This document shows, in pieces, positions 58,258-64,000 of a stretch of DNA of 64,000 nt. Origin of the DNA: Nitrospira sp. (lineage in GTDB: Bacteria; Nitrospirota; Nitrospiria; Nitrospirales; Nitrospiraceae); contig SWDS01000009.1 in assembly GCA_005116745.1 (NCBI GenBank), positions 249,509-313,508 of the forward strand, in the 5' to 3' direction. The notes below the pieces were generated by a model that saw nothing but the letters and a program-made list of their open reading frames with translations, was not told the DNA's origin and did no database searches. The translations under genes were made by a program, and so were the position numbers. Numbering within the stretch: position 1 is the first letter of the stretch; each line of letters starts with the position of its first letter.

Positions 58258-60093
58258 ATGCCACCGGCCATGCTGCTCAGTTGTGAATCCCTAGGAAAGA
58301 GCTACGGGGTGAAGCCCTTGTTCACCGACCTGTCGCTTGGGCTCTGCGACGGCGATCATGTCGGACTGATCGGGCCCAACGGGTCCGGGAAATCTACCTT
58401 GCTCAAGATTCTGGCCGGGATTGAGGATCCGGATCGTGGTACCAGATCTGTTCGACGGCAGCTCCGGATCGGCTATGTGCCGCAAGAGCCCTCGTTTGTG
58501 GAGGGTCATTCGGTTGAAGATGCCCTGGCCCAAGTGCTGCTCGATGACGGGCTGGATCCCCATGAGCAGGGTGGGCGCATTGCCAGGGCCCTCAGTCTTG
58601 GCGGGTTTGTCCGCGCTGATCAGGCGGTGTCCACGCTGTCGGGTGGATGGAAGAAACGGCTGGCGATCGCACGGTCGCTGATGCTGGAACCAGACGTGCT
58701 GCTTCTGGACGAGCCGACCAACCATCTGGATGTTGAGGGGATTCTCTGGCTTGAAGGTCTGCTGAAGGCTGAGCCCCATGCCTTCATCGTTATCAGTCAC
58801 GACCGCCGCTTCTTAGAAGCGGTCACCACGCGAGTCTGGGAATTGAACCGCCAATACCCCAATGGTCTCTTTGAGGCCAAGGGGCGGTACAGCGAGTTTT
58901 TGGAGCAGCGCGACGCCGCGTTGCAGGCGCAGGCCGACTATCAATCATCGTTAGCCAATCGAGTTCGTCGGGAAGTGGAATGGCTTCGGCGAGGGCCGAA
59001 AGCTCGTACGACCAAGGCCAAATCCAGGATTGATTCGGCTGGCCGGCTTATTGACGAACTGAATGATATGGAGTCTCGGCAATCGAAGGGGCCGGCCGGG
59101 ATCGACTTCACCGCTTCTGGACGACGGTCCAAGAAATTGATCGAGGTGATCGGTCTGGGGAAGTCGTTGGGTGCGCAACTGATCATACGCAATCTGGATC
59201 TGCAACTGGGGCCGGGCGAGCGGGTTGGACTGCTGGGTCCGAATGGGAGCGGCAAGTCGACATTGCTCAAACTCCTGGCTGGCACGTTGACGCCTGATGC
59301 CGGAACCATCACCCGCGCCGACCGGCTGCGCGTGGTGACCTTCGAGCAACATCGAGAATCCTTGGACCAGCAAGCCACGTTACGGCGGGCTCTCGCTCCA
59401 GCTGGTGGCGATGCGGTCGTCTATCAAGAGCGGTCTGTGCATCTCGTGTCATGGGCCAAGCGCTTCCTCTTCAAGCCGGAGCAACTGGATTTGCCGGTCT
59501 CTCGTTTGTCTGGTGGAGAGCAGGCGCGGTTGCTCATTGCCCGGTTAATGCTTCAGCCTGCGGATGTCTTGATCCTCGACGAGCCCACGAATGATTTGGA
59601 TATTCCCACGCTCGATGTGTTGGAAGACAGCCTATTGGAATTCACCGGGGCGCTCGTACTCGTGACGCACGATCGATGGCTGCTGGATCGTGTGTCTACC
59701 AGACTGCTTGCGCTAGATGGGACGGGCCGCGCCGAATGGTTCGCTGACTATGCCCAATGGGAAGCCGTACAGGGGAGAACCACCCCAGAAGACAGAAAAT
59801 CTCAGAGCTCAAAAGGGAACTCCACGCAAGGGGGACGGTCCAAACGGAAAGGTTTGTCATACAAAGAACAAGGGGAATGGGACCAGATTGAGGCGAGAAT
59901 CCAAGAAGCAGAGGCGACCGTCGCCGCGTGCCAGGTTAGGGCGAATGATCCGTCCATTGCCTCCTCTCCCGCCGATCTACAGGAGCGGTATACGGTACTC
60001 CATGCTGCCCAGGCCGACGTTGAACGCCTCTATGCCCGCTGGGCCGAACTGGACGCAAAACGTGCCCACGCGGTCGGCAACACGCAACCGTAA
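58258..60093 (+). CDS. ABC-F family ATPase, Uup-like
   Basis: A 611-residue protein with two ABC cassettes and no membrane segments. Both Walker A loops read GPNGSGKST, with signatures LSGGWKKRL and LSGGEQARLL and Walker B motifs LLLDEPTNHLD and LILDEPTNDLD. The linker with a coiled pair (QADYQSSLANRVRREVEWLR) and a C-terminal coiled coil (about 540-600) resemble Uup. ABC-F proteins act on ribosomes or, for Uup, in transposon excision and ribosome biogenesis. The exact subfamily is uncertain. Confidence 0.92.
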   Translation: MPPAMLLSCESLGKSYGVKPLFTDLSLGLCDGDHVGLIGPNGSGKSTLLKILAGIEDPDRGTRSVRRQLRIGYVPQEPSFVEGHSVEDALAQVLLDDGLDPHEQGGRIARALSLGGFVRADQAVSTLSGGWKKRLAIARSLMLEPDVLLLDEPTNHLDVEGILWLEGLLKAEPHAFIVISHDRRFLEAVTTRVWELNRQYPNGLFEAKGRYSEFLEQRDAALQAQADYQSSLANRVRREVEWLRRGPKARTTKAKSRIDSAGRLIDELNDMESRQSKGPAGIDFTASGRRSKKLIEVIGLGKSLGAQLIIRNLDLQLGPGERVGLLGPNGSGKSTLLKLLAGTLTPDAGTITRADRLRVVTFEQHRESLDQQATLRRALAPAGGDAVVYQERSVHLVSWAKRFLFKPEQLDLPVSRLSGGEQARLLIARLMLQPADVLILDEPTNDLDIPTLDVLEDSLLEFTGALVLVTHDRWLLDRVSTRLLALDGTGRAEWFADYAQWEAVQGRTTPEDRKSQSSKGNSTQGGRSKRKGLSYKEQGEWDQIEARIQEAEATVAACQVRANDPSIASSPADLQERYTVLHAAQADVERLYARWAELDAKRAHAVGNTQP

Positions 60094-60250
60094 TGTGAGA
60101 GAGAAACCTGCCGCGCACTAGCCAAATAGGACACGAAGCACTTCGTCACGCCGATTGATCTGGCCAAGGCTTGCCAGCTGTTTGCCCGCCTACACGTAAG
60201 GCAATGCGCATGTCGGACACCGCTTCTGTCTGCCCTGCGGCTGCTCTTCC

Positions 60251-60702
60251 CTAAGGCAGAACGTCAAACACTAAGCGAACGGTTCCTTGCACCGCACCAA
60301 GTACCACAAACTTCTCGCCTATCGCCTCGATTGGCGCAGGGGTCTGCTGCATTGCGAGACGCCACGTCTTCGGGATCTGCACGGTCAAGTCAACCAGCTG
60401 TTCGGATGCCATCACCGACAAGATTTTCTGTGTTCCCCGAGTCTGAACATCTACCTCGACACGATTGCGTGCAGCCCACCAGGTGCCATATTGTCCGATG
60501 GACCCGAACCAGGCAGCGTCCCGCACCGCTGCGACAAACTCCCTTTCAAAAGTCATCTTGTGACCCAGGATGTTGGGATAGATCAAGACGACGACACTTC
60601 CACCGTACCGTGCGACTTTGGCCGCGACAGCAAGGGCCTCTGGTACACGTGAGCCCATCTCGGGTAACGCTTCATCCTCGATGGTTATGGGAAACTCAAA
60701 AA
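60251..60702 (-). pseudogene. 3' part of the split polysaccharide deacetylase gene
   Basis: About 150 codons ending at TAG 60251. The frame reads FEFPITIEDEALPEMGSRV, then GGSVVVLIYPNILGHK, FVAAVRDAAWFGSIGQYGTW and WAARNRVEVDVQ. From memory this is what follows the NodB domain in large polysaccharide deacetylase-like proteins. It has no start of its own; the only upstream start codon lies inside the IS3 end. Together with 62010-63483 it makes one gene cut by the element. Confidence 0.75.
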
Positions 60703-60762
60703 CTAAAGTGGACCCCAAATTCGAGACACCGGTTTAAGCTGTTGTCCTAGGAGGATAATGGC

Positions 60763-61203
60763 ATGAGTGACGGCAAGAAGCGCACAGTGCACAGCGCGGA
60801 GTTCAAGGCGAAGGTTGGGATGGAAGCGGTGCGAGGAGTGAAGACGCTTAACGAGATTGGACAGCAGTACGGAGTCCATCCAGTGGTCGTCGGGCAGTGG
60901 AAGAAGGAGCTTATTGAGAGGGCGGCCACGTTGTTCGACCGTAAGCGCGGGCCAAAGCCAGCGGCGTATGCCGACGAAGAGCGCCTGTATGGGGAGATCG
61001 GGCGGCTGAAGATGGAGCTGGACTGGCTCAAAAAAAGTCCGGACTATGAGCGGCGACACGCGAATGGGCTGGATAGACCGAGGCGAGGTCCTGGCGATCG
61101 CGCAGCAATGCGAACTGGCCGGGGTGGCGCGAGCCACCTTCTACGGACGGCAGACGCCACGCGAGGAATCCGAGGAGGATCTGTTGCTGTGGGGCCTGAT
61201 TGA
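60763..61203 (+). CDS. IS3-family OrfA (frame altered at its 3' end)
   Basis: The first 91 or so residues are a normal IS3 OrfA: a helix-turn-helix (LNEIGQQYGVHPVVVGQWKK) followed by a leucine-zipper-like helix ending ELDWLKK. After a run of seven A (61030-61036) the frame is unlike any OrfA and runs to a late stop at 61203. One more A would give KKKSGL then a TGA that overlaps the orfB ATG, and would put orfB in the usual -1 frame. So a base has been lost here, or was missed in sequencing. Confidence 0.8.
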   Translation: MSDGKKRTVHSAEFKAKVGMEAVRGVKTLNEIGQQYGVHPVVVGQWKKELIERAATLFDRKRGPKPAAYADEERLYGEIGRLKMELDWLKKSPDYERRHANGLDRPRRGPGDRAAMRTGRGGASHLLRTADATRGIRGGSVAVGPD

Positions 61204-61969
61204 TGAGGAGTTCACGCGGCGACCGTTTTACGGCAGCCGGCGGATGGTCGTGTATCTGGCGCGCCAGGGGTACGCCGTCAACCGCAAGCGGGTGCAGCGG
61301 CTGATGCGCCTGATGGGCTTGGCAGGGATGGCCCCGGGACCTTCAACGAGCGTGACGCATCCTGGCCATCAAGTCTATCCCTACCTGCTACGCGGCATCG
61401 AGGTCAGCCGGCCGAATCAGGTCTGGAGCACGGACATCACCTACATCCGGCTGGCGCGCGGCTTCGTGTATCTGGTGGCGATCATCGACTGGTACTCGCG
61501 GCGGGTCCTGGCCTGGCGGATCAGCAACAGCATGGACACGTCGTTCTGCATCGACTGCCTAGAGGACGCGCTGAGCCTCGTGGGCAAGCCGGAAATCTTC
61601 AACAGTGACCAAGGCTCGCAGTTCACAAGCGCGGTGTTCACGGACGTCCTCAAGCGAGAAGGCCTCGCCATCAGCATGGATGGGCGCGGCCGCGCCCTGG
61701 ATAACATCTTCGTCGAACGGCTGTGGCGCAGCGTCAAGTACGAGGAGGTGTATCTGAAGGGATACGGCACGGTCACCGAGCTGACCCTTGGCCTGGCGGA
61801 ATATTTCGCGTTCTACAACGGAGAGCGCCCGCACCAGTCGCTGGACAACCGGACGCCGAACACGGTGTATGCCGATGGCCAGGGCGGTGGGGCGAGTATC
61901 CCCAATTATGTCGGCGGAAGGACAGGGCAGCGCTGCTCCGCTGCGATTGAAATGATGGGCGTAGCTTAA
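61046..61969 (+). CDS. IS3-family transposase OrfB
   Basis: 307 residues with an rve-type integrase core. The catalytic triad is D130 (VWSTDITY), D188 (FNSDQGSQF) and E224 (FVERLWRSVKYE), with the 35-residue DDE spacing of the family. An N-terminal HTH_21-like part (RRPFYGSRRMVVYLARQGY) precedes it. Normally it is made as an OrfAB fusion by -1 frameshifting; in this sequence orfB lies in the +1 frame relative to orfA, so fusion would be impaired. Confidence 0.92.
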   Translation: MSGDTRMGWIDRGEVLAIAQQCELAGVARATFYGRQTPREESEEDLLLWGLIDEEFTRRPFYGSRRMVVYLARQGYAVNRKRVQRLMRLMGLAGMAPGPSTSVTHPGHQVYPYLLRGIEVSRPNQVWSTDITYIRLARGFVYLVAIIDWYSRRVLAWRISNSMDTSFCIDCLEDALSLVGKPEIFNSDQGSQFTSAVFTDVLKREGLAISMDGRGRALDNIFVERLWRSVKYEEVYLKGYGTVTELTLGLAEYFAFYNGERPHQSLDNRTPNTVYADGQGGGASIPNYVGGRTGQRCSAAIEMMGVA

Positions 61970-62009
61970 ACTCGGATGACATCTGTCTTGACAGAGGGGG
62001 CCACTTTAG

Positions 62010-63483
62010 GGTCAGTGAATTTTAGCAGTCAGGAGGAGCTGTAGCGGTAGCCCGTCGCGGCGAGCGCTTGCGGCAGAGCCTTGGGATTCGACAACCCTCC
62101 GAGTCGAAATGACATGACGTTCGCCCCGCCGGACAGCTTCTCAATCAAGTACTTGCCGACGCGCAGCTCGCCGAACACCGATCCGTTTGCCGTTGTGGTT
62201 CGGGTCTTCACATAGGGCTGATATTCCGGATAGCGCTCCGTCCCTGTTCCCAGTGGAAAATAGCTGAACACCTCGGAATGTGCCACCGTATGACTGGCGA
62301 GCTCCATGCCCAACCGGTGCAGTGCTGCCATATCGTTGCTGCCTTGATCGTTTAGGAACACCTCGTCGTTAAAATCTTTGATGTATTTGGTTTGTACGAA
62401 GTAGGTTCCGACGATGCCCTGACTCTTTTCAAACTGTGCATACTGAATGGCATTGGCCATGGACGTCTGTGCATTGATGTCGTGCGTCATGATCACGGCT
62501 AGATCCCGATGGCGCGGAACCGGATGGAGCCGCACGGCATCGGGCTCACCTTCCCGATAGAGGACCGCCAGCAGCCGCAGGAACACGTCGAGCATCGGCT
62601 CGTAGCGGTTGTCATAGCTGCGAGCAAGACCTTCGTCGCGGAGATTGTGCCCTTTCAGCAGAAGATGGCCGAGATCCAGGCCGATGGCATAGGCATGACC
62701 GACTTCGTAGGATCGTCGAGTAATGGCCGCGCTGCCGTCCTCATACCGAGCCAACGGCGGCTCTTTTGTTTCGCTATATGACCAGGTGGCAATTGGAAGC
62801 ACGTGTTTCGCGTGGTTGCCGAGTGGAAGAACCTGCTCGGCGGGATCAGTAAATTCTTCGAGCAGTGGTGCAGCAACGGCCAGCCGCAATTCGTAGTGGT
62901 CGCGGCCATAGCGAATCTCCTGGAATCCGAATACCTTCTCCACGCCCTCACCATAAATGTTGCTGGCGATGAGCGTGCCGCCTTTTCGTGGGTGAGCGAC
63001 CACCGCTTTCAATGCGGTGGGTGGTAAGACGCGCCCTGACAATACCGGGTAGACCATGATCACGCGATGGCGCAGGGCTTCATAGGGATCGGTTGTGACT
63101 GTAAACGGCACCCCGAACGACTTGAGTCCGTGGGCCAGTCCTAGCCAGTTGGATTGTACATCGGTCACTAAGATCGCGAGACGACTCGAACCACCACCGG
63201 CATAATGGGACGGGAGCGTTGGTTCAGGTTGCGATACAAGGCTGGGTGTGGCGGGTCCTATCACGCCTGGAATGCGATAGACAGATCCAGGGGGAACGGC
63301 ATAGACATCGGTCTGAATAGGAATCGGTTGGTACGCTGAGGCAGCCGTTCTCGGCGACATCGGCGTCTCGGACGGAGTTGCTACCGGCCTGCTCGGATGT
63401 CCGATCACCAACCACCAGAGGAGCATGCTGACGCCAAGTGCAACCGCCGTCATCACGCTCAATCTTCCAATGCCGCTCCACAT
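62010..63483 (-). pseudogene. 5' part of the split polysaccharide deacetylase gene (NodB-like)
   Basis: The open frame covers 484 codons (63483 to 62029). An N-terminal membrane anchor (about residues 9-27) and a Pro/Thr-rich linker lead to a Rossmann-like region (LAILVTDVQSNWLGLAHGLK). The NodB-type deacetylase part follows, with MTHDIN and SHTVAHS as the motif-1 and motif-2 equivalents; the second Asp of motif 1 reads Asn. It stops after GYRYSSS. Adding one base there, and one a few bases later, restores VTAKNSLT, expected in homologues. The frame is therefore decayed as well as cut by the IS. It is 3 bases from the HEAT gene. Confidence 0.78.
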
Positions 63484-63486
63484 TGC

Positions 63487-64000
63487 TCACTTCTCCGTGG
63501 AAACAAGGTGAATAGGACCGGTCGCGTCGGAGGTCGAGTGCTGCGCATGGCGTGCGCGGAATTTCGCTAAGACGGGAGCCAGAACTTCTTGCGCCTCAGG
63601 AGTGAGTAAGGTTTCTTGCAATCGTTCCAGGGTATTTTCCGTCATGGATTTCAAGCTTGCCAGGGCTTCCCCTGCTCGATAACGCACCCACCAGTGTTCA
63701 TCATCGAATAACGCAATGAGCCGTGCTTCATCTTCCTGTGTTCCCAGTTTGCCCAATGCGGTGGCCGCTTGAACCCGAACATACCAGGCTGGGCTTGAAA
63801 GATGTGTGCGGATCACGTGCAGATCGGTCGGGTCTCGAAACTCGCCGAATACGAACAAACATGCTGCCAGCACGTCATCTGACGGAGGGTGCTCATGAAG
63901 GAACTGGCGTAATGCGGAGAGTCCACGCGGACTTTTCGTAGTTGGGAGATGGCGAATCAACCGTGGGGCGACGATGGAATCCCCCTGTCGTGCCGCCAGG
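63487..64000 (-). CDS. HEAT-repeat protein, 5' end outside the window
   Basis: At least 170 codons read leftward and remain open to the right edge (LAARQGDSIVAPR precedes a TTG at 63960), so the start is not visible. HEAT-like helix pairs recur (HLSSPAWYVRVQAATALGKL, LFDDEHWWVRYRAGEALASL). Such repeats serve as protein scaffolds. It is immediately upstream of the deacetylase gene and likely shares its operon, so an envelope or exopolysaccharide role is a reasonable guess. Confidence 0.75.
   Translation of the reverse strand, partial: LAARQGDSIVAPRLIRHLPTTKSPRGLSALRQFLHEHPPSDDVLAACLFVFGEFRDPTDLHVIRTHLSSPAWYVRVQAATALGKLGTQEDEARLIALFDDEHWWVRYRAGEALASLKSMTENTLERLQETLLTPEAQEVLAPVLAKFRARHAQHSTSDATGPIHLVSTEK

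Follow-up and report, generated by a model that had tools for sequence, protein, structure and literature searches.

Deacetylation governs the retention of an exopolysaccharide at the cell. It is also described as giving polymers, GAG and Pel among them, a cationic character (PMC9030451). The described enzymes closest to the gene analyzed here are the NodB/CE4 deacetylases (PF01522), including PgaB and IcaB, for which canonical motifs have been laid out (PMC7229062), and Agd3 (CE18/CBM87) with its bacterial homologues, reported to carry an alpha/beta N-terminal domain ahead of the esterase domain and to occur in a glycosyltransferase operon setting (PMC7229062). In Gram-negative bacteria, PgaB is described as fusing deacetylase and glycosidase activities (PMC7112194). 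The locus considered here resembles Pga/PNAG operons in combining a PgaC-like glycosyltransferase (GT2), a TPR protein with an outer-membrane barrel, a glycosidase-like protein and a deacetylase, and it differs from them in that its matches to Pga models fall below their cut-offs, a HEAT protein is present and the GT2 is divergent.

The locus lies in a window of 64,000 nucleotides, meaning the whole stretch of DNA that was analyzed, from a Nitrospira genome (G000; 3.86 Mb in 32 contigs, genus judged by the closest named relative). We propose, with a probability of about 0.92, that its deacetylase gene, the last in a Pga-like exopolysaccharide gene row, is a pseudogene. The main references for comparison are the copy in genome G042 and contig JAOUHD010000184.1 of Nitrospira sp. 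4_1_May_SF_Bin53 (L003), the one relative recovered when the genome collection was scanned with six peptide patterns; the L003 protein is 100% identical to, and of the same length as, that of G077:C199, and we treat the two as the same contig. The features of the locus, in window coordinates, are as follows.

58258..60093, plus strand: a gene that we take, from its sequence, to encode an ABC-F ATPase; convergent, delimiting the shared locus downstream
60251..60703, minus strand: 3′ part of the deacetylase gene, codons 510-659 plus stop (L003 numbering)
60578..60580, minus strand: codon 551, H551Y, in the LIHPN motif
60704..62008, plus strand: IS3-family element of 1,305 bp, splitting the deacetylase gene
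60763..61203, plus strand: OrfA of the IS, 146 aa in G000
61030..61036, plus strand: run of 7 A at the OrfA/OrfB junction
61046..61969, plus strand: OrfB of the IS, with a DDE integrase core (PF00665)
62009..63483, minus strand: 5′ part of the deacetylase gene, with ATG at 63483 and a frame open to 62029 (484 aa)
between 62021 and 62022: 1-bp deletion relative to L003 and G042
between 62030 and 62031: 1-bp deletion relative to L003 and G042, creating a TGA stop
62101..62103, minus strand: codon 461, P461L, in the SFRPG motif
62473..62475, minus strand: codon 337, D337N, in the THDxD motif
63487..63999, minus strand: HEAT-repeat gene, upstream in the gene row, running beyond the right edge (366 aa)

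The earlier note had proposed that the leftward frames at 60251-60702 and 62010-63483 are the end and the beginning of a single gene, and the comparison bears this out; both are present, open at 60251-60718 and 62029-63483. Both halves are collinear with one uninterrupted ORF of 659 aa (L003:3216-5195), at 98.0% DNA identity for window positions 60251-60703 and 97.6% for 62009-64000 (blastn), the frame of the 3′ half taking its start, a TTG at 60718, from within the IS. This open ORF of L003/G077, flanked in L003 by the HEAT gene and by the end of the ABC-F gene (95% identical to that of the window, blastn), is also the intact copy that the note had proposed to seek in relatives. The borders between gene and IS lie at 60703/60704 and 62008/62009. 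As had been noted, no target duplication flanks the element (...AAC / GGG...), and the suspected loss of gene sequence proves to be 50 bp absent at the junction (L003 4693-4742). Two single-base deletions lie 13 and 22 bp away from the IS, and because the second makes a TGA, the open frame of the 5′ half stops at 62029, ahead of the IS. The 2.7 kb aligned to L003 hold no further gap, the intergenic positions 60124-60250 falling outside the alignment (blastn). None of these bases is missing from G042, neither the 50 bp nor the two single ones, and the losses are therefore derived in G000; assembly error may lie behind some of the indels and behind the 7-A run. A search of the G000 genome for a second copy of the gene found the two halves only. 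The earlier description was thus right in substance and understated the damage, the IS being one lesion among several.

Among the alternatives, the one that survives best concerns the origin of the 50-bp loss and is compatible with a pseudogene. Recombination between two close copies of the IS in the same orientation, rather than aberrant insertion or later deletion, would account for the single complete IS, for the unlike triplets at its ends and for the clean deletion. However, no second IS copy or intermediate was seen, and the nearby single-base deletions suggest that simple decay also removes bases at this site; we regard recombination as possible but rather unlikely.

The identification of the insert as an IS3 element is confirmed by its transposase, which scores 271.8 bits against NF033516 (cut-off 160) and 97.7 bits against PF00665 (cut-off 32.6). 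The ends of the element are TAAAGTGGACCCC and GGGGGCCACTTTA, the second also written TAAAGTGGCCCCC. In common with the IS3 family, it has a DDE transposase, two overlapping ORFs and terminal inverted repeats, and 3-bp target duplications are found in the three other copies readable at both ends (GAC in G019, CCG in G062, GGC in G049); unlike the family, the G000 copy lacks a duplication and has OrfB at +1 rather than -1 of OrfA. Matches to the IS occur in at least 41 of 79 genus genomes, a lower bound obtained by scoring up to five candidates per genome, and near-full copies among the matches scored occur only in G019 (98%) and G062 (94%). In these two copies (L011, L012) the A-run at the OrfA/OrfB junction has 8 A, OrfA ends at WLKKKSGL* and OrfB lies in the -1 arrangement, whereas the window copy has 7 A, an OrfA extended to 146 aa and OrfB at +1. 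We read this as damage to the G000 copy and not as the mark of a different IS family. Given the 7 A and the +1 frame, the G000 copy would probably be unable to make the OrfAB fusion via the usual -1 route, with residual low-level slippage, or a homopolymer error behind the 7 A, still conceivable. IS1447 is reported to slip by +1 at 7-9 A (PMC6211511); both near-full relatives of the G000 element are instead in -1.

Two side observations concern derivatives of the element. G049 holds an internally deleted copy of 524 bp (L152:183-706) that keeps both ends and the GGC duplication, possibly a non-autonomous element. Solo short ends in G007 and G077 were considered as MITEs and rejected, the five copies fetched (three from G007, two from G077) being located at contig ends, where assembly has probably truncated longer elements.

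An assembly or binning artefact, with unrelated contigs joined through the IS, might be suspected in a genome of 32 contigs. G000 nevertheless holds no other near-identical copy of the element, its sole other match being partial and 67% identical, and on either side of the element the sequence, genes included, runs collinear with L003 and G042. We consider such an artefact very improbable.

The assignment to the NodB type stood in part. The PF01522 match of the L003 protein (residues 353-481) reaches 20.1 bits and that of the window half 18.9 bits, both short of the Pfam cut-off of 23.1; on the other hand, 13 of 17 orthologues match the family at E<=0.01, and the orthologues conserve THDxD, HTxxH, RPG or RAG, and LIHPN, which gives the Asp motif, HTxxH, the RP motif and the C-terminal His motif in the order expected of NodB/CE4 enzymes. 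In place of the canonical CE4 motif TFDD, the Nitrospira protein has THDxD. It further differs from these enzymes in having an extra N-terminal domain, and from PgaB in that a gene of its own encodes the glycosidase-like protein. The 5′ part of the gene encodes a hydrophobic N-terminus, probably a signal anchor, followed by the N-terminal domain and NodB-like motifs 1-3; the 3′ part holds the LIHPN motif, which reads LIYPN in G000. For the N-terminal domain, weak matches of the beta-galactosidase-trimerisation type (PF08532, a GATase1-like domain) were obtained, together with a weak match to 5vym, a beta-galactosidase BgaB chain, in a profile search of the PDB (E=3e-4). A xylanase match from the profile search was discarded as being at chance level (E=0.21), the L003 sequence on its own matched nothing in the PDB, and its single-sequence structure prediction had a mean pLDDT of 32. 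Taken together, the gene product would probably be a divergent de-N-acetylase of the NodB type, either anchored in the membrane or secreted, to which a further N-terminal domain has been added. Agd3 and its bacterial homologues appear to share the domain layout and the operon setting, but the spacing between motifs 1 and 2, about 61-65 residues in the Nitrospira protein, is more than 120 in Agd3, and PDB sequence searches returned no Agd3 chain at E<=1.

Three motif residues (337, 461 and 551), and S443 as well, are altered in G000 with respect to 21 other sequences, G077 being considered aside. Residue 337 is D in 21 of 21 homologues, and also in G077, and N in G000; the serine at 443, present in 21 of 21, is likewise changed; residue 461, with P in 18 and A in 3, is L in G000; and residue 551 is H in all 20 homologues that reach it and Y in G000. 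By analogy of motif order, D337 and H551 would correspond, in CE4 and Agd3 enzymes, to the metal-binding Asp and the catalytic-acid His, respectively. The corresponding Agd3 substitutions, D378N and H668A, are reported to leave no detectable polymer adhesion in the assay used (PMC7229062). If these motif roles hold, D337N and H551Y would disable the enzyme independently of the IS, as the two 1-bp deletions would disable the gene.

The 484-aa N-terminal fragment could conceivably act as a working shortened protein: its start, its hydrophobic N-terminus and the HxxxH motif are kept in an open frame, and dN/dS with respect to G077 is 0.29, not 1. Against this, the LIHPN segment is missing from the fragment, and an invariant position within it is altered (D337N), which leaves it little chance of being functional.

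Substitutions polarized by G042 were counted at sites invariant in the other sequences, using neighbour alignments without G060 and without rows of 330 aa or less, and a deacetylase alignment also without G060. In the deacetylase of G000, 3 of 7 polarized changes fall at invariant sites, compared with 2 of 38 in the HEAT, GT2, YaiO and GH neighbours combined (Fisher p=0.021); for G077 the figures are 2/5 and 3/67 in the same four genes (Fisher p=0.036), and for both genomes pooled 5/12 and 5/105 (p=0.0009), from small counts and with a test chosen after the changes were seen. Neither deacetylase figure differs from the 23% that a lack of constraint would predict (binomial p=0.20 for G000, 0.32 for G077), which makes these counts compatible with no constraint, not proof of it. 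In pairwise comparison, the deacetylase shows 25 nonsynonymous and 24 synonymous changes, against 10 and 36 in HEAT and GT2 (p=0.005), a difference that is gone once YaiO and GH join the neighbours (p=0.44). We therefore do not accept dN/dS as a demonstration that a pseudogene is drifting and retain it as weak support; the invariant-site count is more direct, yet small and post hoc.

Past the right edge, where an exopolysaccharide operon had been said to continue, the genes do look like one. The order is HEAT (366 aa), a TPR-YaiO barrel (609 aa), a 553-aa protein and a divergent GT2 (L030), and in G000 these other genes of the row are open. The best NCBIfam match of the GT2 is PgaC_IcaA (TIGR03937), at 154.5 bits and below the cut-off of 422.3; the protein is thus not filed as a PgaC member but may work like one. 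The YaiO barrel scores above its NCBIfam cut-off. We call the 553-aa protein (L030:6985-8646) glycosidase-like because its profile hits the PDB chain 10yv_A, a putative glycoside hydrolase (E=2.4e-10); no Pfam family was matched at E<=0.01 by any of its 18 members. Since the deacetylase is the last gene of the leftward row, presumably transcribed as an operon, and faces the convergent ABC-F gene, the insertion should leave expression of the other row genes intact. Three other PF01522 genes above the cut-off are present in G000, at other loci and none near the row, and could act on the polymer in trans.

Judged by flanking genes, the locus is common to six genomes (G000, G077, G042, G053, G050 and G094), that of G077 being spread over two contigs (C199, C211) that we link by inference. 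The deacetylase is open in one of them (G077), separately broken in two (G000, G042) and absent from three (G053, G050, G094). The G042 copy (L067:6514-7989) has one net loss of some 385 bp, a second of some 204 bp and small changes besides, as measured from blastn pieces, the first loss being divided differently in a global alignment; its likely original start is out of frame with the gene body, and its HEAT, YaiO, GH and GT2 neighbours match over nearly their whole length. In G053, only about 36 bp separate the HEAT and ABC-F matches. A tblastx hint of deacetylase remnants in the gap between HEAT and ABC-F of G050 and G094 was dismissed, as 92 and 133 of 200 shuffles, respectively, reached the observed score.

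Among the 79 genus genomes, the glycosidase-like gene is found in 38 and this deacetylase in 30, with both genes in 26, the glycosidase-like gene only in 12 and the deacetylase only in 4. At 10 of those 12 loci (all but G003 and G004), a profile scan of open frames of at least 80 aa detected no deacetylase of this type beside the glycosidase-like gene. On a tree of 30 gene rows built from GT2, YaiO and HEAT, some rows missing a gene, the deacetylase sits beside the row in 13 cases, is broken in 2 (G000, G042) and is non-adjacent in 15, several of the latter having a copy elsewhere in the genome; G060, G079 and G090, among the 13 adjacent copies, have in-frame stops or a frame break. In the deacetylase tree, the G000, G077 and G042 copies form a branch of their own, the neighbours of which are placed with weak support (0.73). 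A gain in the ancestor of these three followed by two breakages would fit as well as many losses, and G053, G050 and G094, which lack the gene, should not be scored as having lost it.

Other copies show features of their own. In G060 (L087:11290-14214), the GT2 and the glycosidase-like protein share one open frame of 1087 aa, suggesting a synthase-hydrolase fusion, and the deacetylase next to it has four in-frame TGA codons. Frame breaks or in-frame stops also occur in G090 (L090:5426-7208), G079 (L088) and G071 (L095), which may reflect real decay or assembly errors. At L078, L080, L081, L082, L083, L084, L085, L086 and L089, the deacetylase is found without GT2, GH, YaiO or HEAT in the fetched stretch, which in some cases ends at a contig end; such stand-alone enzymes possibly serve the gene row from elsewhere.

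According to the pseudogene reading that we favor, an IS3-family element would have inserted into the deacetylase gene, with 50 bp lost and no target duplication left, either at insertion or later. With these losses, the gene is beyond repair by precise excision. As the deacetylase comes last in the row, the genes for the synthase, the glycosidase-like protein, the outer-membrane protein and the HEAT protein would be untouched, and the polymer would probably still be made, without deacetylation by this enzyme. In ica, IS256 acts as an expression switch. That the IS forms a comparable reversible on/off switch of polymer modification through insertion and precise excision, as its position in a biofilm-type gene row and the expression switching known in PNAG operons (S. 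aureus ica phase variation, PMC4117637) could suggest, is scarcely credible, given the missing duplication, the 50 bp lost, two further frameshifts, altered motif residues, the mis-set frameshift site of the IS and a frame that would stay broken after precise excision.

Two copies broken independently, and a third that seems to be drifting, suggest that the deacetylation step is no longer needed in the clade of G000, G077 and G042. As a broader and more tentative proposal, which we consider less likely than not, selection for polymer deacetylation may have ended in this Nitrospira clade, the enzyme being dropped repeatedly while synthesis and export genes were kept, and these species would then leave fully acetylated a polymer from which other Nitrospira remove acetyl groups. 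We found no literature title on loss of this deacetylase in Nitrospira in a search that covered subscription journals thinly and does not prove absence. Taken alone, the single locus is an ordinary pseudogene. A nitrifier clade in which the synthase is kept and the deacetylase given up would put the dispensability of this step to a natural test, and the loss may be relevant to the cohesion of flocs and biofilms in Nitrospira.
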